Below are positions 12,353 through 37,080 of a stretch of DNA of 37,080 nucleotides, piece by piece. The translations under genes and the position numbers were made by a program. A model generated the notes under the pieces. The model saw only the letters and a program-made list of their open reading frames with translations. It was not told the DNA's origin and did not search any database. Every line of letters starts with the position of its first letter. Position 1 is the first letter of the stretch. The stretch is from a virus, in IMG/VR virus record IMGVR_UViG_3300021962_000284, positions 1 through 37,080 of that record, one strand, 5' to 3'.

Positions 12353-13204
12353 ATGATGTCAACACTAGATTCTGTCTTAGCTCAGTACGAGAAATCACAA
12401 CAGTCAGGAGGTAACTCCAACAAAATGTCTATGGACGAACGTATGAAGAAATACTTCGCAGCGATTCTTCCACAAGGACAAAATTCCGCACAAAAACGTA
12501 TTCGTATCCTCCCAACTAAAGATGGTAGTTCACCATTTGTTGAGGCTTGGTTTCACGAAGTACAAGTAGGTGGTCAATGGAACAAACTATATGACCCGTC
12601 AAAAAACGACAACGAACGTTCACCTTTGAACGAAGTTTATGAAGAACTTACCGCTACAGGTAAAGAGTCTGACAAAGAACTTGCAAAAAATTACAAATCA
12701 AGAAAATTCTACATTGTCAAAGTAATCGACAGAGATAAACCTGAAGATGGTGTTAAATTCTGGCGTTTCAAACACAACTACAAAAACGAAGGTGTGTTAG
12801 ACAAAATTATTCCAATTTGGAGAAATAAAGGAGATATTACTAACGCAGAAAACGGTCGTGATTTAATTATCGAATTAGCAAAGGCTAAAACTCCAAAAGG
12901 TAAAGATTACACCATCATTCAAACAATTATGTATGATGATGCACAACCATTACACGAAGATAAGGCTCAATTAGAGGCTTGGGTTAATGACGAATTAACT
13001 TGGAGAGATGTTTATTCTAAAAAACCAACTGACTATTTAGAGGCAATCGCAAGAGGTGAAACTCCACGTTGGGATTCTGAAAAAGGTGGTTATGTTTATG
13101 GTGATAGTTCATCTGAAGAAATGAGTATGGGTGGAGGAACAAGTGCTTCTTCATACAAAGACCCACAAGAGAATGCACAACCTGATGAGGATATGCCATT
13201 CTAA
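12353..13204 (+). CDS. 32: Single-strand DNA-binding protein, gp32-like
   Basis: This 283-residue protein coats single-stranded DNA during replication and recombination. It lines up with T4 gp32 through an N-terminal basic region (residues 1-45), an OB-fold core (RIRILPTKDGSSPFVEAWFH, then SRKFYIVKVIDRDKPEDG and FWRFKHNY) and a flexible Gly/Ser linker. It then ends in an acidic tip, PDEDMPF. T4 gp32 (301 residues) binds zinc through three Cys and one His; this protein has no cysteine at all, so the zinc site is lost. The DEDMPF end resembles the DDDIPF tip of bacterial SSB, used to recruit partners. Two ATG codons in tandem (12353, 12356) could start it, and there is no Shine-Dalgarno. CGT is used for 7 of 12 Arg codons, unlike the AGA-dominated virion genes, which suggests high expression. 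Confidence 0.9.
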   Translation: MMSTLDSVLAQYEKSQQSGGNSNKMSMDERMKKYFAAILPQGQNSAQKRIRILPTKDGSSPFVEAWFHEVQVGGQWNKLYDPSKNDNERSPLNEVYEELTATGKESDKELAKNYKSRKFYIVKVIDRDKPEDGVKFWRFKHNYKNEGVLDKIIPIWRNKGDITNAENGRDLIIELAKAKTPKGKDYTIIQTIMYDDAQPLHEDKAQLEAWVNDELTWRDVYSKKPTDYLEAIARGETPRWDSEKGGYVYGDSSSEEMSMGGGTSASSYKDPQENAQPDEDMPF

Positions 13205-13214
13205 TAATACAACC

Positions 13215-13251
13215 GAACTTGGACATCTACTTAGACAAGGTGTCCAAGTTC
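13215..13251 (+). terminator. Rho-independent terminator after ssb
   Basis: GAACTTGGACA (13215-13225) pairs perfectly with TGTCCAAGTTC (13241-13251). Three more pairs (one of them G-U) extend the stem inwards to 14, leaving a loop of about 9 bases. A T-rich run, TTTATATTTT, follows directly. It would let ssb be transcribed more strongly than uvsX and the genes downstream. Confidence 0.8.
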
Positions 13252-13291
13252 TTTATATTTTAAATAAAAAGAAATAATAACATAGACATAT

Positions 13292-14293
13292 ATGGCAATC
13301 AAAAAAAACGATTTTAAATCAATCAAAGATAAGTTCTCAACATCGGCAAAATACAAACCACAAAGATTTTTTGATTTGGGTACTGACTTTTTGGATGCGG
13401 TAGGATTACCAGGACCTGCGATAGGTCACTTGAATATGTTTTTAGGTCACTCGGACACAGGAAAAACAACTGCGTTAGTTAAAACTGCGGTTGATGCTCA
13501 GAAAAAAGGTATTTTACCTGTGTTTATTATTACCGAACAAAAATGGTCTTTTGAACACGCAAAACTTATGGGTTTTGAATGTGAAGAAGTTGTTGATGAA
13601 GCAACAGGGGAATTGGATTGGGATGGGTTTTATATCTTCAACAATAACTTTGACTATATTGAACAAATTACGGATTATATTAATTCATTGTTGGACGCTC
13701 AAGAGAAAGGTGAATTAGATTATAGTTTATGTTTTATGTGGGATTCTGTTGGTTCAGTTCCTTGTAAAATGACATTTGAAGGTAAGGGTGGTAAACAACA
13801 TAACGCATCTACATTAGCAGATAAAATTGGTATGGGTATTAACCAACGTATCTCAGGTTCTCGTAAAGCGGATTCTAAATATGAAAATACTTTAATCATA
13901 GTTAATCAACCTTGGGTTGAATTACCTGATAATCCTTTTGGACAACCTAAAATTAAGGCTAAAGGTGGGGAGGCTATTTGGTTAAACTCATCATTAGTTT
14001 TCTTATTTGGAAATCAAAAAGGTGCGGGAACAACAAAAATTACCGCAACAAAAGACAAGAGAACAATCAAATTCGCGTCAAGAACTAAAGTATCTGTAAT
14101 GAAAAACCACATCAATGGTCTTGGTTATGAGGATGGTAAAATCATTGTAACACCACACGGATTTATTGCGGGTAAAGAAGCGTCAGAAGAGAAGGCATCT
14201 ATTGAGAAATACAAAAAGGAATATGCTGACTATTGGAAAGAGATTATCGGAACCGATGGTGATTTTGATTTAAGAGAAGAAAAAGAGTCGTAA
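13292..14293 (+). CDS. uvsX: UvsX-like RecA-family recombinase
   Basis: This 333-residue strand-exchange ATPase drives recombination-dependent replication and repair in T4-like phages, working with the gp32-type protein encoded just upstream. Walker A is GHSDTGKT (residues 52-59), a Glu in the ITEQKW segment (Glu82) sits where the RecA-family catalytic Glu is expected, and Walker B is CFMWDSVGSV ending on Asp151. The later segments NQRISG and IIVNQPW fit the L2/motif-4 part of the RecA core. T4 UvsX is 391 residues, so this copy is shorter. The ATG at 13292 lies 41 bases after the ssb terminator and has no Shine-Dalgarno. UvsX rather than bacterial RecA is preferred because of the gene order and the N-terminal ...RFFDLGTDFLDAVGLPGPAIG arrangement. 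Confidence 0.85.
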   Translation: MAIKKNDFKSIKDKFSTSAKYKPQRFFDLGTDFLDAVGLPGPAIGHLNMFLGHSDTGKTTALVKTAVDAQKKGILPVFIITEQKWSFEHAKLMGFECEEVVDEATGELDWDGFYIFNNNFDYIEQITDYINSLLDAQEKGELDYSLCFMWDSVGSVPCKMTFEGKGGKQHNASTLADKIGMGINQRISGSRKADSKYENTLIIVNQPWVELPDNPFGQPKIKAKGGEAIWLNSSLVFLFGNQKGAGTTKITATKDKRTIKFASRTKVSVMKNHINGLGYEDGKIIVTPHGFIAGKEASEEKASIEKYKKEYADYWKEIIGTDGDFDLREEKES

Positions 14294-14311
14294 CAATATA
14301 AACAAAACTAA

Positions 14312-15322
14312 GTGACTAAAACATTATTAGTTGACGGTAATAATTTACTAAAAATAGGATTTCACGGGGTAAAAGATTTTTACCATAAGGGAGAACACGT
14401 TGGTGGGATATGGCATTTCATCAATACGTTACGTAAATTCATTGAAGAATATAACTACGATAAAGTTGTGGTATTTTGGGACGGTGAAAGTAGTTCATCC
14501 GCAAGAAAATTAATATATCCACAATACAAAGAAAACCGACATTCCGAAACCAATGTTTACAAGGAAGATTCTTTCACTAAACAGAAAGAACGAGTTAAAC
14601 AATATTTGGAGGAAATGTTTGTAAGACAGATAGACATTGACAATAATGAGGCCGATGATTTAATCGCTTACTATTGTCAGGTGTCTCCTGACGAAAATAA
14701 GACAATATTTTCAGGTGATAGAGACTTAACACAGTTAATCTCAGAACGTGTCTCTATCTATTCCCCAAACACTAAGACGATGTATCAGAATGGTGATAAG
14801 ATTAAAATATATCACTATGAATTCCCACATCAAAACATTAAAACTTATAAGATACTATCTGGTGATAAATCGGATAATATAGATGGTATCTATTACTTAG
14901 GTGAAAAAACTTTGGTTAAATTATTCCCTGAGTTACTTGAAAATACGGTAAATGTTTCCGATATTTTAACTAAGGCTGAAAAGTTATTTGAAACGGATAA
15001 AAACAACACTGCTTTAAATAATCTACTTACTGGTAAGACTAAAACAGGAGTGTATGGAAATGAATTTTTTATAATTAACGAAAAAATAGTAGATTTGTCT
15101 AATCCCTTAATAACTGATGAAGCTAAAGAATTGGTTGAACTTTATTACCGAGAAAGTTTAGACCCTGATGGTAGAGGGTATAAAAACTTGATAAAGATGA
15201 TGATGGAGAACGGATTCTTTAAATACTTACCAAAAACTGATGATGCTTGGGTTAACTTCATCAGACCTTTTATGAAACTAACCCGAAAAGAAAAAAGAAA
15301 TTATAAAACAAACAAAAATTAA
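14312..15322 (+). CDS. rnh: RNase H / 5'-3' exonuclease of the FEN family
   Basis: This 336-residue protein resembles T4 RNase H (305 residues), a flap/5' nuclease that removes RNA primers from Okazaki fragments. The acidic metal ligands of the family are visible: Asp8 in LLVDGNN, Asp57 in VVFWDG, Glu113/Asp115/Asp116 in NNEADD, Asp136/Asp138 in SGDRD, and Asp185/Asp188 in LSGDKSDNI, the last opening the helix-3-turn-helix DNA-binding element. The basic RKLIYPQYKENR segment forms the helical-arch entry seen in FEN proteins. The start is a GTG at 14312, 18 bases after uvsX; no in-frame ATG lies near it and Asp8 requires a start this early. The neighbours ssb, uvsX and helicase match its replication job. 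Confidence 0.85.
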   Translation: MTKTLLVDGNNLLKIGFHGVKDFYHKGEHVGGIWHFINTLRKFIEEYNYDKVVVFWDGESSSSARKLIYPQYKENRHSETNVYKEDSFTKQKERVKQYLEEMFVRQIDIDNNEADDLIAYYCQVSPDENKTIFSGDRDLTQLISERVSIYSPNTKTMYQNGDKIKIYHYEFPHQNIKTYKILSGDKSDNIDGIYYLGEKTLVKLFPELLENTVNVSDILTKAEKLFETDKNNTALNNLLTGKTKTGVYGNEFFIINEKIVDLSNPLITDEAKELVELYYRESLDPDGRGYKNLIKMMMENGFFKYLPKTDDAWVNFIRPFMKLTRKEKRNYKTNKN

Positions 15323-15325
15323 ATT

Positions 15326-15781
15326 ATGACAAAAGAGCAAGACTTAACGAAAATGGAGTTTTTACTTACGTTAAACGACAGAATCATTGTACAAAGATTT
15401 TACAATGTTAAAGGATTTAATTCATCGGCAAAAAATTCGTTAGAGTTATACGAATTTATTAAAGAGGTTAAAGAGGATTTAGAGTTAGATTTGAAAAACA
15501 GAACGGTATCATATATGATTGATAACATCAATCAAATTATGGAAGACGAGAACGTTTTAAACACATCAATGACTGAAGGTGAAGAACACTTTAATTTATT
15601 TATTAAGGTTGGTGATGAGACACTTTGTCATAGACAATTTAACGCAAAATTATACCCGCCAAAAATAAGATACACCGTAGACGTACGTCCGTACCTAAAA
15701 ACTGTACTTAAGGGTTTGACTGACATTTTTTCAGGTGAAAATTTAACTTATGAATATCTAGGCCTTCCGCTTTCAGTATAG
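15326..15781 (+). CDS. Conserved-position protein of unknown function (151 residues)
   Basis: I do not recognise the family. The protein is soluble, acidic in the middle and mixed alpha/beta: an N-terminal strand pair (MEFLLTLNDRIIVQRFYNV), a helical segment with many Glu/Lys (ELYEFIKEVKEDLELDL), then HFNLFIKVGDETLCHRQF and a C-terminal RYTVDVRPYLKTVLKGLTDIF. There is no nucleotide-binding or metal motif. It starts three bases after rnh and sits directly before the helicase, so a replication accessory role is possible. In T4 the helicase loader gp59 and late co-activator gp33 lie near gene 32 and rnh, but I see no sequence match to either. It is the only gene in the window that ends in TAG; the other 18 complete genes visible end in TAA. 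Confidence 0.7.
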   Translation: MTKEQDLTKMEFLLTLNDRIIVQRFYNVKGFNSSAKNSLELYEFIKEVKEDLELDLKNRTVSYMIDNINQIMEDENVLNTSMTEGEEHFNLFIKVGDETLCHRQFNAKLYPPKIRYTVDVRPYLKTVLKGLTDIFSGENLTYEYLGLPLSV

Positions 15782-20717: not shown

Positions 20718-21176
20718 ATGGCTAATGGTAAAACATATGGAATTGCGTTTCCCTTCAACAGTTCTACTGAGGGAGATTATCTGAAATTAACTCAAACTGC
20801 GAATGACGAGATAAGAACGGATTTAATTCACCTACTTCTAACAAGAAAAGGGTCTAGATATTTTTTGCCTGATTTTGGAACTCGATTATATGAGTATATT
20901 TTCGAACCATTAGATACTCCAACATTTAATAGTATCGAATCTGAGATTCGTGAGTCTTGTGAAAAGTATTTACCTCAATTAAGAATAACTAGTATTAGTG
21001 TAAAAGCTTACGTTAGTGAAGAAACTGAAAGTGGTGGTGTTAGTTCAGGTAGTAATACTACTGAGTATAATATGCCAGGTATGGGGGCTGACGAATATAC
21101 CGCGAAGGTTAAAATAGATTACGTAATAACCGACGATGTCTTTAGTAGTAAAGATTTCGTAATCTTAAATATTTAA
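20718..21176 (+). CDS. 25: Baseplate wedge protein, gp25-like
   Basis: This 152-residue protein of the GPW/gp25 family (T4 gp25: 132 residues) is a conserved wedge core piece shared by contractile phages and type VI secretion baseplates. The family signature is clear: an N-terminal DEIRTDLIHLLLTRKGSR segment, then FLPDFGTRLYEYIFEPLD (residues about 49-66), a helix around SEIRESCEKYLPQ and a closing beta pair with KVKIDYVI. A Gly/Ser-rich insertion (about residues 107-126) lies between the last strands. It begins a new transcriptional block after a terminator and is followed five bases later by gene 6, its structural partner. Confidence 0.92.
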   Translation: MANGKTYGIAFPFNSSTEGDYLKLTQTANDEIRTDLIHLLLTRKGSRYFLPDFGTRLYEYIFEPLDTPTFNSIESEIRESCEKYLPQLRITSISVKAYVSEETESGGVSSGSNTTEYNMPGMGADEYTAKVKIDYVITDDVFSSKDFVILNI

Positions 21177-21181
21177 TTAAT

Positions 21182-23023
21182 ATGGCAGAAAAAAGAATAT
21201 CCTATACCGTAAGGGACTTCCAAGAAGTTAGAACGGAATTAATAAATTTCACGAAAACCTATTATCCTGATTTAATAGATAACTTTAACGACGCATCTAT
21301 TTTCTCTGCATTATTAGATTTAAACGCTGCCGTATCAGACAATTTACATTTTCATATTGATAGAAGTATTCAAGAAACGGTTTTACAATATGCTCAACAA
21401 AAATCTTCAATATTTAACATTGCAAGAACTTACGGATTAAAACTTCCAGGTCAAAGACCTTCAGTGGCTTTAGTCGACTTCTCAATTACGGTACCCGCGA
21501 ATGGTGATAAGGATGATGAGAGATATGAAGGGATATTAAGAAGAGGAAGCCAAGTAACGGGAGTTGGACAAATTTTTGAAAACGTGTATGATATTGATTT
21601 TTCATCACCATATAATTCACAAGGTTTTCCAAACCGACTTAAAATACCTAATTTTGATGGTAATAATAATTTAATTAGTTATACAATAACTAAAAGAGAA
21701 TTAGTTGTTAATGGTATTACTAAAGTATTCAAACAAGTAATAACCGCTAATGATGTTAGACCGTTTTTTGAGTTATTCTTACCTGAAAAGAATGTGTTGG
21801 GTGTTACATCTGTTATACAAAAGGATGGTACTAACTATGCTAATGTACCTACAGTGTCTGAGTTTTTATCACCTGCGGGTAAATGGTATGAAGTTGACGC
21901 GTTAGCCCAAGACAGGGTATTCATTGAGGACCCAACTAAACCAAGTGATTTACCTGGTGTTAAAGTTGGACAATGGGTTGTTACTAATGATAGATTTATA
22001 ACTGAATATACACCTGAAGGGTTTTTAAAAATGACATTTGGAGGTGGTAATACATCGGCTGAAGACCAATTAAGAGAATTCGCAAGAAGTGGAATTGAAA
22101 CTTTACCAATGCAGAATTATTTAAATAATTTCTCATTGGGTAGTACTTTAAAGGCTAATACAACAATATTCGTACAATATCGAATTGGTGGTGGATTAGC
22201 AACAAATATTGGGGTTAACACTATTAATCAGATTGGTACTGTTTCATTTTTTGTAAACGGACCTTCAGAGTCTACAAATACCGCAGTTGTTAATTCATTA
22301 AGATGTACTAACGTAACCGCAGCGATTGGTGGTGCTGGATTACCTACATTAGAAGAAATAAGAAATTTCGTATCATTTAACTTCTCGGCTCAAAATAGAG
22401 CGGTAACAATTAATGACTACGAAGCTTTAATTAGAAAAATGCCTGGTCAATTTGGTGCTCCTGCTAAAGTATCTGTTGTTGAGGAAGATAATAAAATTAA
22501 GGTTAAAATATTGTCATATGATACCTCAGGTTCCTTAACTTCTATAGTTTCAAATACTTTATTAAATAATCTTGCCGAGTACCTTTCAAACTATCGTATG
22601 ATAAATGACTATATTTCAATTGAAACTGCGGATGTTATTGATTTAGCAGTTGAAGTTTCAGTTGTATTAGATGCTAGTCAAAATCAAGGTGTTGTTGTTG
22701 GTACGATTATTAATAAGATTTCGGATTATTTTAATCCGTCAACAAGACAATTAGGGGGTAATGTTAACATATCTGAAATTAATAAAATAATTCAATCAGA
22801 GAATGGTGTGATATCGTTAACCGAATTAAAAGTGTTTAACAAAGTTGGTGGAGAGTACTCATCATCAGAAACTTCAATGAAGTATGCGGATTCTTCTACA
22901 AAACAGATAGAACCTACCGATAATACTATCTTTGCACTCCCAACTCAAATCTATCAAATTAGATATCCTAATAAGGATATTACGGTTAAGGTTAAGAATT
23001 TCCAAACCGTATCAATTAGCTAA
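21182..23023 (+). CDS. 6: Baseplate wedge protein, gp6/baseplate J-like
   Basis: This 613-residue protein is close in size to T4 gp6 (660 residues), which joins the wedges into a ring around the hub. It opens with SYTVRDFQEVRTELINFTK and the FNDASIFSALLDLNAAVSDN segment typical of gp6/J proteins (attachment helices), followed by GLKLPGQRPSVALVDFSITVP. The J-type core VTINDYEALIRKMPGQFG (about residues 408-425) is followed by ACVSVV-like strands, and two beta repeats follow at the C-terminus (VVLDASQNQGVVVG, ISEINKIIQSENGVIS). It comes right after gene 25. A 118-base gap with a hairpin follows. Confidence 0.9.
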   Translation: MAEKRISYTVRDFQEVRTELINFTKTYYPDLIDNFNDASIFSALLDLNAAVSDNLHFHIDRSIQETVLQYAQQKSSIFNIARTYGLKLPGQRPSVALVDFSITVPANGDKDDERYEGILRRGSQVTGVGQIFENVYDIDFSSPYNSQGFPNRLKIPNFDGNNNLISYTITKRELVVNGITKVFKQVITANDVRPFFELFLPEKNVLGVTSVIQKDGTNYANVPTVSEFLSPAGKWYEVDALAQDRVFIEDPTKPSDLPGVKVGQWVVTNDRFITEYTPEGFLKMTFGGGNTSAEDQLREFARSGIETLPMQNYLNNFSLGSTLKANTTIFVQYRIGGGLATNIGVNTINQIGTVSFFVNGPSESTNTAVVNSLRCTNVTAAIGGAGLPTLEEIRNFVSFNFSAQNRAVTINDYEALIRKMPGQFGAPAKVSVVEEDNKIKVKILSYDTSGSLTSIVSNTLLNNLAEYLSNYRMINDYISIETADVIDLAVEVSVVLDASQNQGVVVGTIINKISDYFNPSTRQLGGNVNISEINKIIQSENGVISLTELKVFNKVGGEYSSSETSMKYADSSTKQIEPTDNTIFALPTQIYQIRYPNKDITVKVKNFQTVSIS

Positions 23024-29823: not shown

Positions 29824-30622
29824 ATATAAAATATCATTACCTACTGATACTGATAAAGAATTAGTTATACCAGTACAAATGACTTGGGATTTAGCCGACA
29901 GGTCAGATTCTTTAGTCGCGTTTGAACGAAATGCGATTACTGAAATATTAAATGGTGATAAAGATTTTGAGGTTGCAAGATTTGCACCTGCGGGTATTGT
30001 TGACCCCACTAATAATGTGTTGAGGACTGATGTTAATTATTCATTTAACTTTGTACCTAATGGTGCTAGCGTTAGTACAACAATATGGGAACCGTCGTAT
30101 GTTGTCCAAGGATTCTCAACTAATGAAGTTTATATGTATTCAAATCCGTTTAAAAGGTCATTCTTTAAATTGGACTTATACGATAGTACGGATTTAAAGA
30201 CTCAGACGAATTACGTAACAATTATATTACCAACTCAACAAGGGGCTACAACCGCGGCAACAGTTAACTATGAGACTAAGAATATTAAAACTCCAATATT
30301 CAAATTGGATTATTTAGGGGACCAAGAAGGTATGTTTATTTATTGGTTAAAAAAACGAGATTTTTTAAATATTACAACATTTTATATGACCGCTAAGTTT
30401 TTTGATGCTAAAAATGGGTATTTTATTAAAATGATGAACAGACCTCAGTCAAGTTTGATTGGTGATAAGTTTAATTTCCCACAGGATAGATATTTTTATT
30501 ATAAGGTCATCTTAGATTATAATACTTACACCTATAAAATCTATGATATTTCAGGTGGAGGACAAACTCTTGTAGGTCAAGAGTCTAATCCGATAAAATG
30601 GTACGAATATATTAACCCATAA
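29810..30622 (+). CDS. Structural protein of unknown function (270 residues)
   Basis: I chose the ATG at 29810 (protein starting MIVNKYKISLPTDTDKE), which overlaps the upstream stop by 14 bases. An ATG 42 bases earlier, at 29768, would overlap by 56 and add an unlikely tail. The protein is beta-rich with no membrane segment: VIPVQMTWDLADRSDSLVAFE near the start, a VTIILPTQQGATTAATVNYE strand region, and a C-terminal FYYKVILDYNTYTYKIYDIS. The MTWDLADRSDSLVAFE stretch looks like a conserved interface, but I cannot name the family. It is coupled to both neighbours (14-base and 1-base overlaps) in a run of virion genes. Confidence 0.65.
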   Translation: MIVNKYKISLPTDTDKELVIPVQMTWDLADRSDSLVAFERNAITEILNGDKDFEVARFAPAGIVDPTNNVLRTDVNYSFNFVPNGASVSTTIWEPSYVVQGFSTNEVYMYSNPFKRSFFKLDLYDSTDLKTQTNYVTIILPTQQGATTAATVNYETKNIKTPIFKLDYLGDQEGMFIYWLKKRDFLNITTFYMTAKFFDAKNGYFIKMMNRPQSSLIGDKFNFPQDRYFYYKVILDYNTYTYKIYDISGGGQTLVGQESNPIKWYEYINP

Positions 30623-31734
30623 TGAACGAAGATAGATACTATATTAAAATTTCCCCTGAAGTTATTAATGGTGACATATTCAATATATGTTACCCAAGTG
30701 GTAATACATATCCGAGTGGTTGTACATATGTTTATTCTGGTATGAGTCAAATTCTTTCAGGAGGGACTAATGGAGATTCATTATTAACTGGACTAACAAT
30801 TCCTATTATGATAACAGAGACTGCGGTTGATGTTGGATTATATTCGATATTTGACGGTAACTTGTTACAATCTGATGTTGTTAAGAATTTTGTGTTTTCG
30901 GCTCAAACAGTTTCACCTAAAAGATATTATTTCTATAATACTTCAGACCAGAAATATAAAAACTATTTAAAGTTCTCAACGTTTGAGGTTGATTGGGGAG
31001 ATGGTGTTAGTGGTCAAACAATTACAACATTATCGCCAAATTATATTTATCACGACTACATTAATAACGGGACTTATACCATTACTTTAACTCAAAAAAA
31101 CCCTTGGGGGGTTAATACAGTTAAGAAAACTATAGTAGTTCCATTTACAGGTACTACAATAGATAACCCTAACGGTACTGCATATTTCACGTCAAATGTT
31201 GGTTCTTGGAGCGCGACGCCAATATCCTATGATTATATATTTACAGGAGATTCTGAGAACAACATAGTCTCCCAAGTTTCGAGTAACTATACATCAACAC
31301 CTTTTTTAATAACTGGTAACACAGATTCTCGAATAACTGAATTACAATCTTACGGTAAAAATCCTTACGTTCTTAATAAAGTTATTAAGGACAAAAATAA
31401 TCAGTTTTTTGGGGTAATAAGTGCGATGACCCCAACATATACAGGGTATACAATACAAGATACTCAGTATCTTGATTTTATTGATGGAACGACATCCTAC
31501 TTAACATATAGTAGTGGTTTAATTCCTGAGTGGATGGTTCAAGAACCAATAGTTAAAGATGAATCACTGATGAATATTGTTTACCAACCTGAAGTACAAT
31601 CCGACGTTTTTATTGAACGAGGTAAGAACAGTGCTTTAGAACGAATTGAAAGATTAGGTGAGGTTGATAACATCGGAGACCTTGAAAACTACGGATACGG
31701 ATTTTTTAATTTTATAAAACAAGAAAATCTATAA
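30622..31734 (+). CDS. Structural protein with a PKD-like domain (370 residues)
   Basis: Residues about 118-175 resemble a PKD/Ig-like fold: FEVDWGDGVSGQTIT carries the hallmark W-G-D-G, then YHDYINNGTYTITLTQKN and the closing strand KKTIVVPF. PKD domains are common in surface and adhesion proteins and also occur in phage tail proteins. The C-terminal segment (ERGKNSALERIERLGEVDNI, then DLENYGYGFFNF) looks like a conserved attachment motif of tail proteins in comparable phages, though I cannot name it. The ATG overlaps the preceding TAA by one base (TAATG). A 47-base gap with a CTATTTAT motif follows. Confidence 0.7.
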   Translation: MNEDRYYIKISPEVINGDIFNICYPSGNTYPSGCTYVYSGMSQILSGGTNGDSLLTGLTIPIMITETAVDVGLYSIFDGNLLQSDVVKNFVFSAQTVSPKRYYFYNTSDQKYKNYLKFSTFEVDWGDGVSGQTITTLSPNYIYHDYINNGTYTITLTQKNPWGVNTVKKTIVVPFTGTTIDNPNGTAYFTSNVGSWSATPISYDYIFTGDSENNIVSQVSSNYTSTPFLITGNTDSRITELQSYGKNPYVLNKVIKDKNNQFFGVISAMTPTYTGYTIQDTQYLDFIDGTTSYLTYSSGLIPEWMVQEPIVKDESLMNIVYQPEVQSDVFIERGKNSALERIERLGEVDNIGDLENYGYGFFNFIKQENL

Positions 31735-31781: not shown

Positions 31782-32690
31782 ATGGCAATAGGAACATATG
31801 GAACGATAAGACCGTCAGATGTATCACCCGAAGATGTTGATATTATTTTAAATTATACACCTTCAAGAGATGCTACGGACAACTTTATATTAAAATCGTT
31901 GGATGCTAAAACAATATTAAGACCTTACTTCAATAATGCAAGTACGGGTGGTAACGCCGACATTGAAATTCTTGGTGGGTTGTATAATTTAAAATTACCA
32001 GCAAATGAATTTAATAAACTTGGGATTTATACCTTATATCTTAGACCTGCACAAATTAGAACGCAGATTAATGATTGTGGTGTATTATCTGCGTTACCAA
32101 ACATTAAAGGTATTGTAATTAATTTAGATAATGTTCCTGCACAATTTAAAAATAAATTTACCGCACAAGGTTTAGTTGGTTTTAGAATTGAATACTTAAA
32201 TGATGACGGTACTAAGATACCTAATTTCTTTAGAGTAATTACGTCAAACTTTTACTGTCAACCCGTAACTCAAAACTTAACAAACACATCTCAAAAGGCT
32301 ATTAGATATCGTTATGTTGACGGTGTGACTAATTTAATGTTTTGTACGTTAACACCTTCATCTGCTCCAACTAATAAACCAAATGCAACACCATTCATTG
32401 GTCAGCCTGGTCAAAATATCATTATCAGTAATACTTTTTTTAATCCAATAACGATTGATATCGAAGTTGCGGAACACGATTTCAATACATTGGCGATAGC
32501 TCTTTACGGTAATCAAACTAAGTCTATTGACGACGGTATCTACACAATCTACGACACTGAAAATAACATATATAGACAATATAATCTTTACGAGATTAGA
32601 GATGAATATAATAAATTGTTATTTGAAGTTAGACAAGATAGAGGTAATAATATTGATTTCAGTAAAAACTTCACAAGTATTACAACATAA
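31782..32690 (+). CDS. Structural protein of unknown function (302 residues)
   Basis: I do not recognise the family. Residues 1-60 (RPSDVSPEDVDIILNYTPSRD) form a proline- and aspartate-rich N-terminal arm. The rest is beta-rich and compact (LKLPANEFNKLGIYTLYLRP; GLVGFRIEYLNDDGTKIPNFF), ending with a charged helix and strand (YEIRDEYNKLLFEVRQDRG). The size and mixed fold suit a baseplate trimer or a fibre connector. The ATG follows an A-rich leader (AACAAAATAAAACAAA) without a Shine-Dalgarno sequence. Its stop overlaps the next start (TAATGG), so it is coupled to the 994-residue protein that leads to the fibre. Confidence 0.65.
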   Translation: MAIGTYGTIRPSDVSPEDVDIILNYTPSRDATDNFILKSLDAKTILRPYFNNASTGGNADIEILGGLYNLKLPANEFNKLGIYTLYLRPAQIRTQINDCGVLSALPNIKGIVINLDNVPAQFKNKFTAQGLVGFRIEYLNDDGTKIPNFFRVITSNFYCQPVTQNLTNTSQKAIRYRYVDGVTNLMFCTLTPSSAPTNKPNATPFIGQPGQNIIISNTFFNPITIDIEVAEHDFNTLAIALYGNQTKSIDDGIYTIYDTENNIYRQYNLYEIRDEYNKLLFEVRQDRGNNIDFSKNFTSITT

Positions 32691-35674
32691 TGGCGAAAAA
32701 ATTCTATAGATATCCCCCGAGACCCTCTAGCGGAGCTGGAACTTTCTCCGACAACATTGTAGGTTTACAAATTGTTGACGGTGGAGGTTTGACGCAAGGT
32801 AATTTTGAATTCACAACATCGGTAGTTGAAAAAGTTAATAGAAACTTTAATATTGGTGCGTTTTCAGAACCGATATCTTTAGATAGTTTAAAGATTGGTA
32901 ATATTTTGGAATCTAAAGCAATTATCGCTAAAGATTTTAGAGTGTATCCTAATTTTGATTTATCTGAGATTTCAAGATTTACTTTGTACGGACCATTATC
33001 TAAAAGAATGTCAACGTCTATTCAAAAAATCATAAACTTCTTTCCAGGTGCTTTAGAAATATCGCCTGTTAACTATGACGCGTCTACCGCCAATACTGCG
33101 ACAAATGCGGTTTATGATATACTTGAAAATCATACAACATTTGATATTAATATTGCTAAAATTAGAAATCCGTTTGGAGTTGATTTTAGTATAAACTCGA
33201 CAAGAAACATTTCATTATTAGAGTATCAAGTTTCACCTTTAAGAAATTTAACCACAGAATATACTAAATACTCATTGTTTATTGGGGATAAGGAATATCC
33301 TATGGTTTACATTAACCCAACCCAAAGTCTATACAGTGGTATTTTAACTGTTACAATACTTGGTAAACCTTTTGGGGATAACTCAACAAGTTCCGAGTAC
33401 TTAGTAATCAGACCTAACAGTTTTTATTCCGATAAGTCATTATTGGAACCATTTGATGAGGTTGAAAAATTCTTATTAAATAGGTTAATAGTTCCTCAGT
33501 ACACTGCAGTTTTCCAAGTCCCAAAACAAACAGAAGAAGGATTATTTTATACTGATAACCAAAGAGTTACTTGGCCATTAAATGGTGTTTGGAATTTAGA
33601 TATTGCAACAGAATCTTTCGATTTTTATTTAGCAACCGTTAGTGATATTGCGGATTCATTTGACTCGTTTAGAACTAATTTGGTTACTAGATTTTTAACA
33701 ACACAAGCCTTTAAGGATTTTGACACGGAAGACCAAAAAGTTCAAAAAATATTGAACGTGTATGGTAGAAGTTTTGATGAGGTTAAAAAATTTATTGATA
33801 CCTTATCGTTTATGAATTCTGTAAATTATAATGTTGGTAATGATATTCCATCTCAATTACTTAAAAATCTTGCTGAAACGGTTGGTTGGAAAATCAATGT
33901 CTCACCAATTACTAATGATAGTTTCTTAGAATCTGTATTTGGTAATGATAGTAAAATACAATACCCTGGTTTCTCAAGAGCCAACACCCCGACAGAATTG
34001 AATTATCAGTTTTATAGAAATTTAATATTAAATGCTGCTTACTTATTCAAGTCTAAAGGTACTCGAAAGTCTATTGAATTTATGCTTAGATTAGTTGGTG
34101 CCCCTGAAGCTTTAGTCGAATTTAATGAAAACATTTATGTTGCGGGACAAAAGATTAATATGGGGGATTTTGAAAGACAATATTCTTATATTTCAGGAGG
34201 AACATACTCTCAAGATTTACCTTCGTATGATAGCGGTACTACATTTTCAATACACGGTATAAAATATACAGGGTTTACTAGTCAAAAAAATATTGAAGAT
34301 GCAAACGCAACACTTGCCGATTATCCGATAGACTCTGAAGGTTATCCTTCTTCATTATCAAATAATGAAAATTATTTCTTTCAAAAAGGTGCGGGTTGGT
34401 TTGAATTAGTTAAAGACCACCAAAGTATTCAACAGGTTAATAGAACCACTAGTGTATTTACAGGTCAAAACTTTAATATTCAAACTTACTTTGAACCGTT
34501 CACCTATGGACAAAAATATTTGGAAAGATATCGAACTTTCCCATATATGACTGAAGGGTTTAAAATAGTTAGAACAATTGATAATAAGAAAAGTTGGCCA
34601 ATTAATGATGTTGGGTTAAGAGTTAGTGGGGGTAGGTCAAATTACAACGCATATTACTTTGTTAATAATGAAAAGTTAGTAATTAATGTTAAGAACATAG
34701 ATTTATTTATGAATCCTGCTCAGGGGTTATTATATGATGTTTGGACAATGTCTACTAAATATGACTACCCAATCCCTAATACAGGTCTAACAACACCATA
34801 TCCACAACCTGGAGGTGTCGATTGGACTTTTATTAATCCGAAACCAAGTAAGAAAACATTTTTTGAGTTTGCTCAAACATTTTGGAGTAATATGATTAAT
34901 ACTCGAAATAGACAATTCATCTCCGATGGTAAAACAGGAGGGTATCCTACATTACAGTCTATTTGGTGGAAATATCTACAGTCAGAATCGGCGGTTAATA
35001 TCCCTAACGATAATTTTAATTATCAGACAATGATTAATTATATTAATGGTTTAGGTGATTATTGGGTAAGATTGGTGGAACAAATGATACCCGCATCCAC
35101 TTTATGGATGGCTGGGTCTAAGTTTGAAAACTCAATTTTCCATAGACAAAAATTTGTTTATAGATTACAAAGAGGTTGTGAAATTGTACCTTTACCTTGT
35201 GACCCTTGTAGTATTAACGGTAACATATTCCCATATAATTGTAGTGAGGAAAAAGTTACTTGTTATGTATATCCTTGGGATAATGGACAAACTACTGTAA
35301 CTTCATTTGGAGATGTATTGTACCAAACAATAAATAACTATTTAATATCTATTGGTGAATCCTTTACAACTTGTTCTGAACAATCAATCGTGTCTGATTG
35401 GTATGTTGACGTTAAATTAGGTGGGAATCAAATAATGAAAGTTCTGTTTTATAGTGGATTTGGTATTGGAGACGTACCGTCACCAACACAGTGGTTAAAT
35501 ACAATTACAACTTATTTACCTGATATATTATTAGAACAGGGTCTTGGTTTTACATTAGACGAAAGTACTAGCCAAAGTAAATTTGTTATTTATAATTTAG
35601 GATGTGACCCTAAATTTAACGATAAGACATTTGAGTTAAATGTCGGAATAAACTTTTCAATTAAGTGTGATTAA
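32690..35674 (+). CDS. Large baseplate/fibre-attachment protein with tail-protein-I-like section
   Basis: This protein has 994 residues. Residues about 345-410 and 440-480 contain a pattern like P2 gpI/TssG-type wedge proteins: VYGRSFDEVKKFIDTLSFMN, DIPSQLLKNLAETVGWKI, then LILNAAYLFKSKGTRKSIEF and MLRLVGAPEALVEF. The family call is by pattern memory, not alignment. The middle is beta-rich with many aromatics; the region WRWKYLQSE-like around 34960-35100 carries ASTLWMAGSKFENSIFHRQKF, another conserved-looking block. The C-terminal 150 residues hold clustered cysteines (CDPCS, NCSEEKVTC) and look like a separate module (SIVSDWYVDVKLGG...). The next gene, overlapping by one base, is the SprB-repeat fibre, so a role in anchoring it to the baseplate is inferred. 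Confidence 0.65.
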   Translation: MAKKFYRYPPRPSSGAGTFSDNIVGLQIVDGGGLTQGNFEFTTSVVEKVNRNFNIGAFSEPISLDSLKIGNILESKAIIAKDFRVYPNFDLSEISRFTLYGPLSKRMSTSIQKIINFFPGALEISPVNYDASTANTATNAVYDILENHTTFDINIAKIRNPFGVDFSINSTRNISLLEYQVSPLRNLTTEYTKYSLFIGDKEYPMVYINPTQSLYSGILTVTILGKPFGDNSTSSEYLVIRPNSFYSDKSLLEPFDEVEKFLLNRLIVPQYTAVFQVPKQTEEGLFYTDNQRVTWPLNGVWNLDIATESFDFYLATVSDIADSFDSFRTNLVTRFLTTQAFKDFDTEDQKVQKILNVYGRSFDEVKKFIDTLSFMNSVNYNVGNDIPSQLLKNLAETVGWKINVSPITNDSFLESVFGNDSKIQYPGFSRANTPTELNYQFYRNLILNAAYLFKSKGTRKSIEFMLRLVGAPEALVEFNENIYVAGQKINMGDFERQYSYISGGTYSQDLPSYDSGTTFSIHGIKYTGFTSQKNIEDANATLADYPIDSEGYPSSLSNNENYFFQKGAGWFELVKDHQSIQQVNRTTSVFTGQNFNIQTYFEPFTYGQKYLERYRTFPYMTEGFKIVRTIDNKKSWPINDVGLRVSGGRSNYNAYYFVNNEKLVINVKNIDLFMNPAQGLLYDVWTMSTKYDYPIPNTGLTTPYPQPGGVDWTFINPKPSKKTFFEFAQTFWSNMINTRNRQFISDGKTGGYPTLQSIWWKYLQSESAVNIPNDNFNYQTMINYINGLGDYWVRLVEQMIPASTLWMAGSKFENSIFHRQKFVYRLQRGCEIVPLPCDPCSINGNIFPYNCSEEKVTCYVYPWDNGQTTVTSFGDVLYQTINNYLISIGESFTTCSEQSIVSDWYVDVKLGGNQIMKVLFYSGFGIGDVPSPTQWLNTITTYLPDILLEQGLGFTLDESTSQSKFVIYNLGCDPKFNDKTFELNVGINFSIKCD

Positions 35675-37080
35675 TGTTTTATAACGCAATTGTAAATGGG
35701 GACTGTAATGGTTTGGGTGATGGTTCAATCCAAATATTCCCTATTGACGGTGTCGAACCATATACTATAGATTGGTACAATCCAAATTTAGGTGTTGATA
35801 CTTTAGTGTATGATGGTGACGACTCAACTAGAACAGGACTTAGTGGAGGTTTATATCAGATAAGAATAAATGACTCGAATACACCACCAAACGATGAGAT
35901 TTATGTGAATCTTTGGATTTCAACAGGTATGTGTCTTAGTTTAGAGACCATTACTGAGGCGAGTTGTGAAGGTAGTAATGGTATGTTATCTGTTACCGCA
36001 ACAACACAAAACTATCCCGTAACTTATGATTTATATCAGTTATCAGGATTAAATAGTACCCTTATCAGTACTTCAGTTGCCGATGATATTCAAATTTTTG
36101 ATTCATTACCGTCTGGAATTTATTACGTTATCGCCACAGATGATGGTGGTTGTACAGGTTCTACAGGTACTTGTGTTATTTCAGATTCAGGAAAATTCAC
36201 ATTTGGTTTATATACTATTGATGATTCCGCGTGTACTGCAGGTAATACTGGTGCCATTTATGTTACAGGATTAACGGGTACCGCTCCTTACACATATCAG
36301 TGGAGTAGTAGTCCATTAAATCAACCTTCATTAACAGGTTTAACAGGAGGGTCATATTCAGTTACTGTTACAGACGCTAATAATTGTTCAATTACTGAAA
36401 GTGTTGTAGTATCCGCAGCTACTCGTTTAGGTATTATTAATTTTGTTAACTCATCCCCGACTTGTTTTAATAATGATGGACAAGTTATCGTTAATATTTC
36501 AGGAGGTACTCCACCATTTTATTATCAGTTTTCAAATGGTGAAAATGATATTGATGGTGATAGAAGTTATACCTATAGTAATTTAGTTGCTGGTACCTAT
36601 ACTGTTATTGTAACTGATGCTGCATTATGTGTAGTTTCAGGTAGTACAACTATATTAACACCTAATTCATTTACATCAACTAGTGTTGTTGTAAAAAATT
36701 CCACCTGTTCTAACGGAAGTGGTTCTATTACGGTATCTGGTGGTGGAGGACAAACGCCTTATATTTTTGAATTATTAGATTCTAATGGAACTGTACTTAA
36801 TACACAAAATACATCTCCTAGTGCGATTTTTAACAATTTAAATTCTGGTACTTATACCGTCACAATGACAACCCAAGGTGGTATATGTACTTATACTAAA
36901 ACCGTAGTAATTGAAAACGTACAACCATTTGCAGTTAGTGCAACACCTATTGCGACCACCTGTGGAAATCAAAATGGTCAGGTTACAGTTTATGTTGATA
37001 CACCAGGTATTTACACATATCAAGTTGGTAGTCAGATAATTGCCAATAGTACAAGCCAAACCGCTACTTTTACAAATTTG
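35674..37080 (+). CDS. Fibre/adhesin-like protein of SprB-type repeats (3' partial)
   Basis: ATG at 35674 overlaps the preceding TAA by one base, and the frame stays open for 469 codons to the window end, so the stop lies outside. The protein is a chain of about six degenerate repeats of 77-89 residues, each beginning near a cysteine (residues 11, 98, 187, 264, 345, 430). The pattern is C..(N/G)xGx(I/V)xVxxxGGxxPYxYxW, then LxxGxYxVxVTDxxxC. The clearest copy reads LTGGSYSVTVTDANNCSI. This matches SprB-type repeats of Bacteroidota gliding adhesins (family knowledge, judged by eye). No signal peptide is seen, consistent with a virion protein rather than a secreted one. It is probably the host-recognition fibre or a fibre extension. 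Confidence 0.75.
   Translation, partial: MFYNAIVNGDCNGLGDGSIQIFPIDGVEPYTIDWYNPNLGVDTLVYDGDDSTRTGLSGGLYQIRINDSNTPPNDEIYVNLWISTGMCLSLETITEASCEGSNGMLSVTATTQNYPVTYDLYQLSGLNSTLISTSVADDIQIFDSLPSGIYYVIATDDGGCTGSTGTCVISDSGKFTFGLYTIDDSACTAGNTGAIYVTGLTGTAPYTYQWSSSPLNQPSLTGLTGGSYSVTVTDANNCSITESVVVSAATRLGIINFVNSSPTCFNNDGQVIVNISGGTPPFYYQFSNGENDIDGDRSYTYSNLVAGTYTVIVTDAALCVVSGSTTILTPNSFTSTSVVVKNSTCSNGSGSITVSGGGGQTPYIFELLDSNGTVLNTQNTSPSAIFNNLNSGTYTVTMTTQGGICTYTKTVVIENVQPFAVSATPIATTCGNQNGQVTVYVDTPGIYTYQVGSQIIANSTSQTATFTNL
35704..37080 (+). repeat. SprB-like protein repeat array (about six units, continues past the window)
   Basis: Repeat units start near 35704, 35965, 36232, 36463, 36706 and 36961, giving spacings of 261, 267, 231, 243 and 255 bases. 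The units share cysteine, PYxY and YxVxVTD positions at protein level but are diverged in DNA, so they are old duplications rather than recent tandem copies. Confidence 0.7.

Follow-up and report, generated by a model that had tools for sequence, protein, structure and literature searches.

What does a repeat of the Bacteroidota gliding adhesin SprB do in a phage? The question is raised by the last open reading frame (ORF) of a 37,080-base virus record, which was analysed over its whole length (the window) and at whose end this ORF is still open. A sequence-only reading had described the product as a phage fibre built from SprB-like units and had suggested that it resembles the moving adhesin of the host and binds SprB itself, the gliding machinery or the ligands of the adhesin. 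Our analysis favours a different role. The gene probably encodes a virion fibre of a myovirus, in which a stalk of Ig-like repeats, probably attached to the baseplate, carries exchangeable tips, and the host probably belongs to the Bacteroidota.

Results

The ORF (35674-37080, + strand) starts with an ATG that overlaps the stop codon of the preceding gene (TAATG) and continues for 469 codons without a stop before the window end. It is the 5' part of a gene whose complete relatives encode 877 aa. It lies within the tail/baseplate module, downstream of the baseplate wedge genes (20718-23023, +), which comprise a gp25-like gene (20718-21176) and a gp6 or Baseplate_J-like gene (21182-23023), and the same synteny is seen in relatives. 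The earlier description of a fibre-like protein is borne out by this position adjoining baseplate genes. A 370-aa protein of the tail module (30622-31734) has a sub-threshold match to PKD, another Ig-like fold (19.3 bits; cut-off, 27).

The repeat assignment of the sequence-only reading had been staked on a Pfam SprB score, and that score was found: PF13573, which has a curated cut-off of 28 bits, matched the 469-aa protein at 69.5 bits (E = 1.8e-19) over five stretches. When the DNA of the window record was searched with SprB, four places matched, two of which exceeded the cut-off on their own, and none of 14 control genomes matched. No family was matched at E <= 0.01 by one residue shuffle, one dipeptide-block shuffle or the reversed protein. 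With the boundaries placed by the analyst, the window holds five complete units (78-90 aa each) and the beginning of a sixth (47 aa). Unit 3 (residues 180-257; 36211-36444, +) and unit 4 (residues 258-338; 36445-36687, +) carry the two matches that exceed the cut-off, at 36211-36309 (29.2 bits) and 36451-36546 (35.6 bits), respectively. Unit 1 (residues 1-90; 35674-35943, +) and unit 5 (residues 339-422; 36688-36939, +) are matched at 35686-35787 (25.3 bits) and 36685-36786 (22.6 bits), each of which alone is below the cut-off. Unit 2 (residues 91-179; 35944-36210, +) has no single-place SprB match and shows beta-strands in the predicted model. Unit 6 (36940-37080, +) is cut by the window end and is complete in the relative L005.

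These units are strongly diverged. Their mean pairwise identity is about 32%, which is not above that of shuffled units, and their alignment scores exceed those of shuffled units (61 vs 30, s.d. 7.5). Two or more cysteines are present in most of them. The YxVxVTD strand is strict only in unit 3 (YSVTVTD) and unit 4 (YTVIVTD), and looser versions are found in unit 1 (YQIRIND), unit 2 (YYVIATD) and unit 5 (YTVTMTT). The earlier description of diverged SprB-style repeats therefore stands, but the single cysteine in each unit and the YxVxVTD strand in every unit, which were part of it, do not.

Four viral contigs contain the whole gene, at 94-97% identity and a length of 877 aa (in L005 at 12985-15618). 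These relatives supply the layout beyond residue 469, where the window gene is cut: seven repeats, an alpha/beta domain at about residues 601-709, a Pro/Thr linker of the TPTPTQTPT type and a short cysteine-containing end domain. Homologues that were read at full length in other relatives have 680 to 1201 residues. In every relative with a contig that extends far enough, a homologue occupies the position behind the same upstream gene, even if the upstream protein is only 51-56% identical, and SprB was matched (E <= 0.01) in 15 of the 16 family members. Many viral contigs, the longest of them 208 kb, have the gene at this place, which disposes of the suspicion that it is a host fragment; an assembly chimera is ruled out by this synteny.

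No relative of the upstream protein was found by its A2 profile in bacterial and archaeal genomes, and none of P0002 in annotated phages, so that no isolate anchors the family. The best annotated-phage match, in the 642-kb record LR756502, was rejected as a fibre homologue since it is a secreted SprB protein of the cellular type. This 1670-aa protein (L054:10933-15945; LR756502.1, 642,428 bases, labelled uncultured phage) has SprB repeats, a signal-peptide-like start and a type IX secretion system (T9SS) type B domain (50.1 bits).

Further genes were observed around the fibre genes of related phages. After the fibre gene of the nearest relatives stands an ORF with collagen-like Gly-Ser-Ser-Gly-Thr repeats (L005:16699-22980), which encodes at least 2094 aa and is open at the locus end. 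Downstream of the fibre gene of another related phage (L012:16642-18702) lies a gene for a further SprB-repeat protein of 687 aa (42.9 bits), distinct from the fibre, and in a third locus glycosyltransferase and heptosyltransferase-like genes lie near the tail fibre genes (L026:18236-22138).

Units that occupy corresponding positions in different phages had a mean alignment score of 147, and units at different positions one of 61. The number of repeats (seven) and their order are constant in the family alignment. Since same-position units align far better and their number is constant, the array appears to be old rather than recently amplified. Comparison of close relatives in pairs gave mostly 70-100% identity for the repeats and the post-repeat domain, whereas the part beyond the post-repeat domain is 39-74% identical and 0 to 480 aa long. 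The exceptions are unit 6, which is only 52-54% identical in two pairs, and unit 5, which is 59% identical in another. The end of the L022 protein is a FISUMP (Fib_succ_major) domain (Pfam E = 4.4e-25, the sole matching member; NCBIfam also over its cut-off), and the proteins of L024, L026 and L033 end right after the post-repeat domain, with no tip in the same gene.

The gene directly upstream (32690-35674, +) encodes a tail-module protein of 994 aa, a conserved partner with 33 relatives in viral contigs at 51-97% identity (alignment A2). Its C-terminal alpha/beta domain (35327-35671, +) is homologous to the post-repeat domain of the fibre (hhalign probability 95.7, E = 9.4e-9). In the ORFs of nine sequences, the HMMs of the two domains found each other reciprocally and nothing further except one borderline match in the split upstream protein of L035. 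Helices and strands come in a similar order in the models of the two domains, and no named family was found for the shared domain. The AlphaFold model of the upstream protein is poor (mean pLDDT 41), so that only its C-terminal domain is usable, and a fold search with this protein returned nothing at E <= 0.001. A domain shared by neighbouring tail genes suggests a duplication and, possibly, co-assembly of the two products.

AlphaFold predicted the fibre protein as a string of beta-sandwiches, in which the repeats mostly have a pLDDT of 70-88 and the end region is unconfident; at a pTM of 0.27, the arrangement of the domains is not given by the model. Fragments of GhpA, from the Bacteroidota bacterium Aureispira, were the best solved fold match (best E = 3.5e-16). 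In the viral structure library (BFVD), the first match was A0A6J5LD72 (34% identity, E = 4e-52). Since UniProt holds this phage homologue under the name 'SprB repeat', proteins of this kind are already in databases. A literature search for SprB together with phages (titles, abstracts and term counts) returned no paper describing SprB repeats in phages.

The features of exported adhesins were looked for in the phage proteins. The T9SS type B sorting domain (TIGR04131/CHU_C) was present in three cellular-type controls (L072, L056 and L054) and in none of the four complete phage homologues. By eye, the N-terminus (MFYNAIVNGDCNGLGDGSIQIFP) has no basic and hydrophobic segment of the Sec signal peptide type. 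A T9SS type A (TIGR04183) sorting signal in L005 was considered and rejected, as the match was weak, below the cut-off and in the middle of repeat 5.

The phage profile, in a scan that used only two peptide patterns, recovered 31 cellular loci, all of them from Bacteroidota. The NrdA protein of the window is 38-41% identical to those of Cellulophaga and Tenacibaculum phages and of one 642-kb uncultured record, and 28-30% identical to those of the next phages listed. The use of the repeat as a clue to a Bacteroidota host, proposed by the sequence-only reading, is upheld by the cellular loci and by these nearest NrdA relatives. The host is probably a member of the Bacteroidota, which NrdA supports independently.

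SprB repeats were also observed in other viral contigs. One of them, of 30,338 bases, has three genes side by side (L049:5493-10693). Their products are a protein with a T9SS type A sorting domain (TIGR04183, 34.6 bits, above the cut-off), a TonB-dependent receptor and a protein of 331 aa that has a single SprB repeat and a start resembling a signal peptide; a PHA02142-type RNA ligase is found at the same locus. Two readings fit: a phage with genes for secreted and outer-membrane proteins, or bacterial DNA among the viral contigs. A close relative of the 331-aa protein is encoded at L053:5836-6828, in a viral contig of 120,084 bases that also includes L087-L089. No homologue of the window tail genes was seen in the stretches of this contig that were read. 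At one end it carries a series of glycosyltransferase-like genes, and many of its proteins start with similar tags, such as MNLQEQIRKILKEE and MKIIITESQ, which are possibly a targeting signal.

Discussion

We infer that the protein is carried on the virion and attached at the baseplate, and that its tip rather than its repeats binds the host. Seven Ig-like beta-sandwiches of the SprB type in a row would form a spacer or stalk, the N-terminal part of which would be encoded by the window ORF. The post-repeat alpha/beta domain has a relative at the C-terminus of the upstream protein and may help the two proteins assemble. The variable end domain borne by the Pro/Thr linker is the likelier receptor-binding part, and beyond this flexible linker the end of the fibre would meet the host. 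It is also possible that other fibre-like genes downstream could encode the real receptor binders. The variable end region is the place to look for host range, and the analysis defines a domain that is common to two neighbouring tail genes.

Attachment at the baseplate is favoured because the gene shares a module with gp25- and gp6-like genes. Against a baseplate fibre, the best phage sequence matches are to neck-whisker and head-decoration proteins. The protein might then be a fibritin-like neck whisker or a head-decoration protein, whose protruding Ig-like repeats give a weak, general attachment to surface sugars. This alternative is rather unlikely in our judgement, and it stays a serious one because the sequence matches point there. 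The top PHROG match is to Hoc-like head decoration (phrog_2973, E = 3.3e-12), the nearest solved chains by sequence profile are the phage neck-whisker protein gp24 (4.6e-5) and phage decoration proteins, and the fibritin of phage RB43, which is encoded directly after gp12, has repeats near its C-terminus that match SprB and Ig families. However, the PHROG and PDB matches span the Ig-like repeats alone, and such repeats are common in phage structural proteins. Fibritin_C, which is present in RB43 Wac, is among the matched families in none of the 16 members. The gene also adjoins the gene of the 994-aa protein wherever the contig shows it, and the two products have a domain in common.

Two other explanations place the function in the repeats themselves. 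One is that the repeats are the adhesin, each Ig-like unit binding glycans or exopolysaccharide on the host surface. Phage Ig-like domains are often discussed as sugar binders, tail-associated BACON arrays have been suggested to act in host binding (PMC6949934), and some units are as variable as the tips in single pairs. On the whole, however, it is the repeats that are conserved, and each of the seven has kept its place in the array. No carbohydrate-binding family exceeded its cut-off in the repeats, with the exception of an IRG7 N-terminal galactose-binding model, which matched two members (best E = 1.3e-7) in overlap with the Ig-like repeats. We regard this explanation as improbable. The other is the one proposed by the sequence-only reading, that the fibre resembles the moving adhesin and binds SprB, the gliding machinery or the adhesin's ligands. 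A Flavobacterium johnsoniae protein that has a type B sorting domain also contains repeats of the SprB Pfam family. A paper on Flavobacterium columnare phages considers their receptors to be probable components of the gliding machinery, in line with a proposal made for F. johnsoniae (PMC7345892). However, it is the type B C-terminal domain and not the repeats that directs SprB to the gliding machinery (PMC12618676), and this domain is missing from the four complete phage homologues. The cellular relatives are just 23-40% identical, and the repeat is generic, as the fibritin of Escherichia phage RB43 matches it too. The conservation of the repeats and the variation beyond them give no support to such mimicry either, and we consider it very improbable. 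The same very low likelihood applies to the extension of this idea, that the phage took up gliding-adhesin repeats to engage the moving surface track or the adhesin ligands and that virions thereby travel over the surface of the cell.

The preferred reading, a baseplate fibre with an Ig-like stalk and exchangeable tips, does not depend on the name of the repeat. The Pfam SprB model describes an Ig-like unit that is common in exported Bacteroidota proteins, and 'SprB' names this building block. Because the model is not exclusive to Bacteroidota, the label does not lead one to expect that the fibre binds SprB or a gliding track, and on a phage protein the name 'SprB' should not be taken as a link to gliding. 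The exported T9SS type B proteins of Bacteroidota have repeats of the same Pfam family as the fibre. However, these cellular proteins carry the type B sorting domain and, where the start was seen, a signal-peptide-like N-terminus, and the phage proteins have neither. Judged by these two features, the fibre is not a gliding adhesin.

Similarities to other known systems are also partial. GhpA of the Aureispira grappling hook (PDB 9flp, 9fly and 9flw) is likewise a long string of beta-sandwiches, but it is part of a cellular appendage, is 14-19% identical to the fibre and has no sequence-profile match to it. A0A6J5LD72, a 714-aa 'SprB repeat' protein of an uncultured Caudovirales phage (UniProt/BFVD), is a nearly full-length structural match that has diverged from the window protein in sequence. 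RB43 fibritin (Wac) and its relatives are T4-like structural proteins in which the Ig-like repeats at the C-terminus score above the SprB cut-off (41.9 bits), and the RB43 protein is 34.7% identical to the window protein over 26% of the latter. RB43 fibritin has Fibritin_C and a long non-Ig N-terminal part and is encoded between gp12 and gp13, whereas the window protein is Ig-like from its first residues and is encoded beside the 994-aa protein. The BACON arrays of crAss-like phages (PMC6949934) are, like the fibre repeats, a Bacteroidota-type beta-sandwich in tandem, in a tail-associated protein. They belong to another domain family, and in several of these arrays single domains have been duplicated or transferred, whereas the number and order of the fibre repeats are fixed. 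In these syntenic uncultured phages, a Bacteroidota-type repeat seems to have been turned into a fixed, fibre-like stalk, in parallel to the BACON repeats of crAss-like phages.
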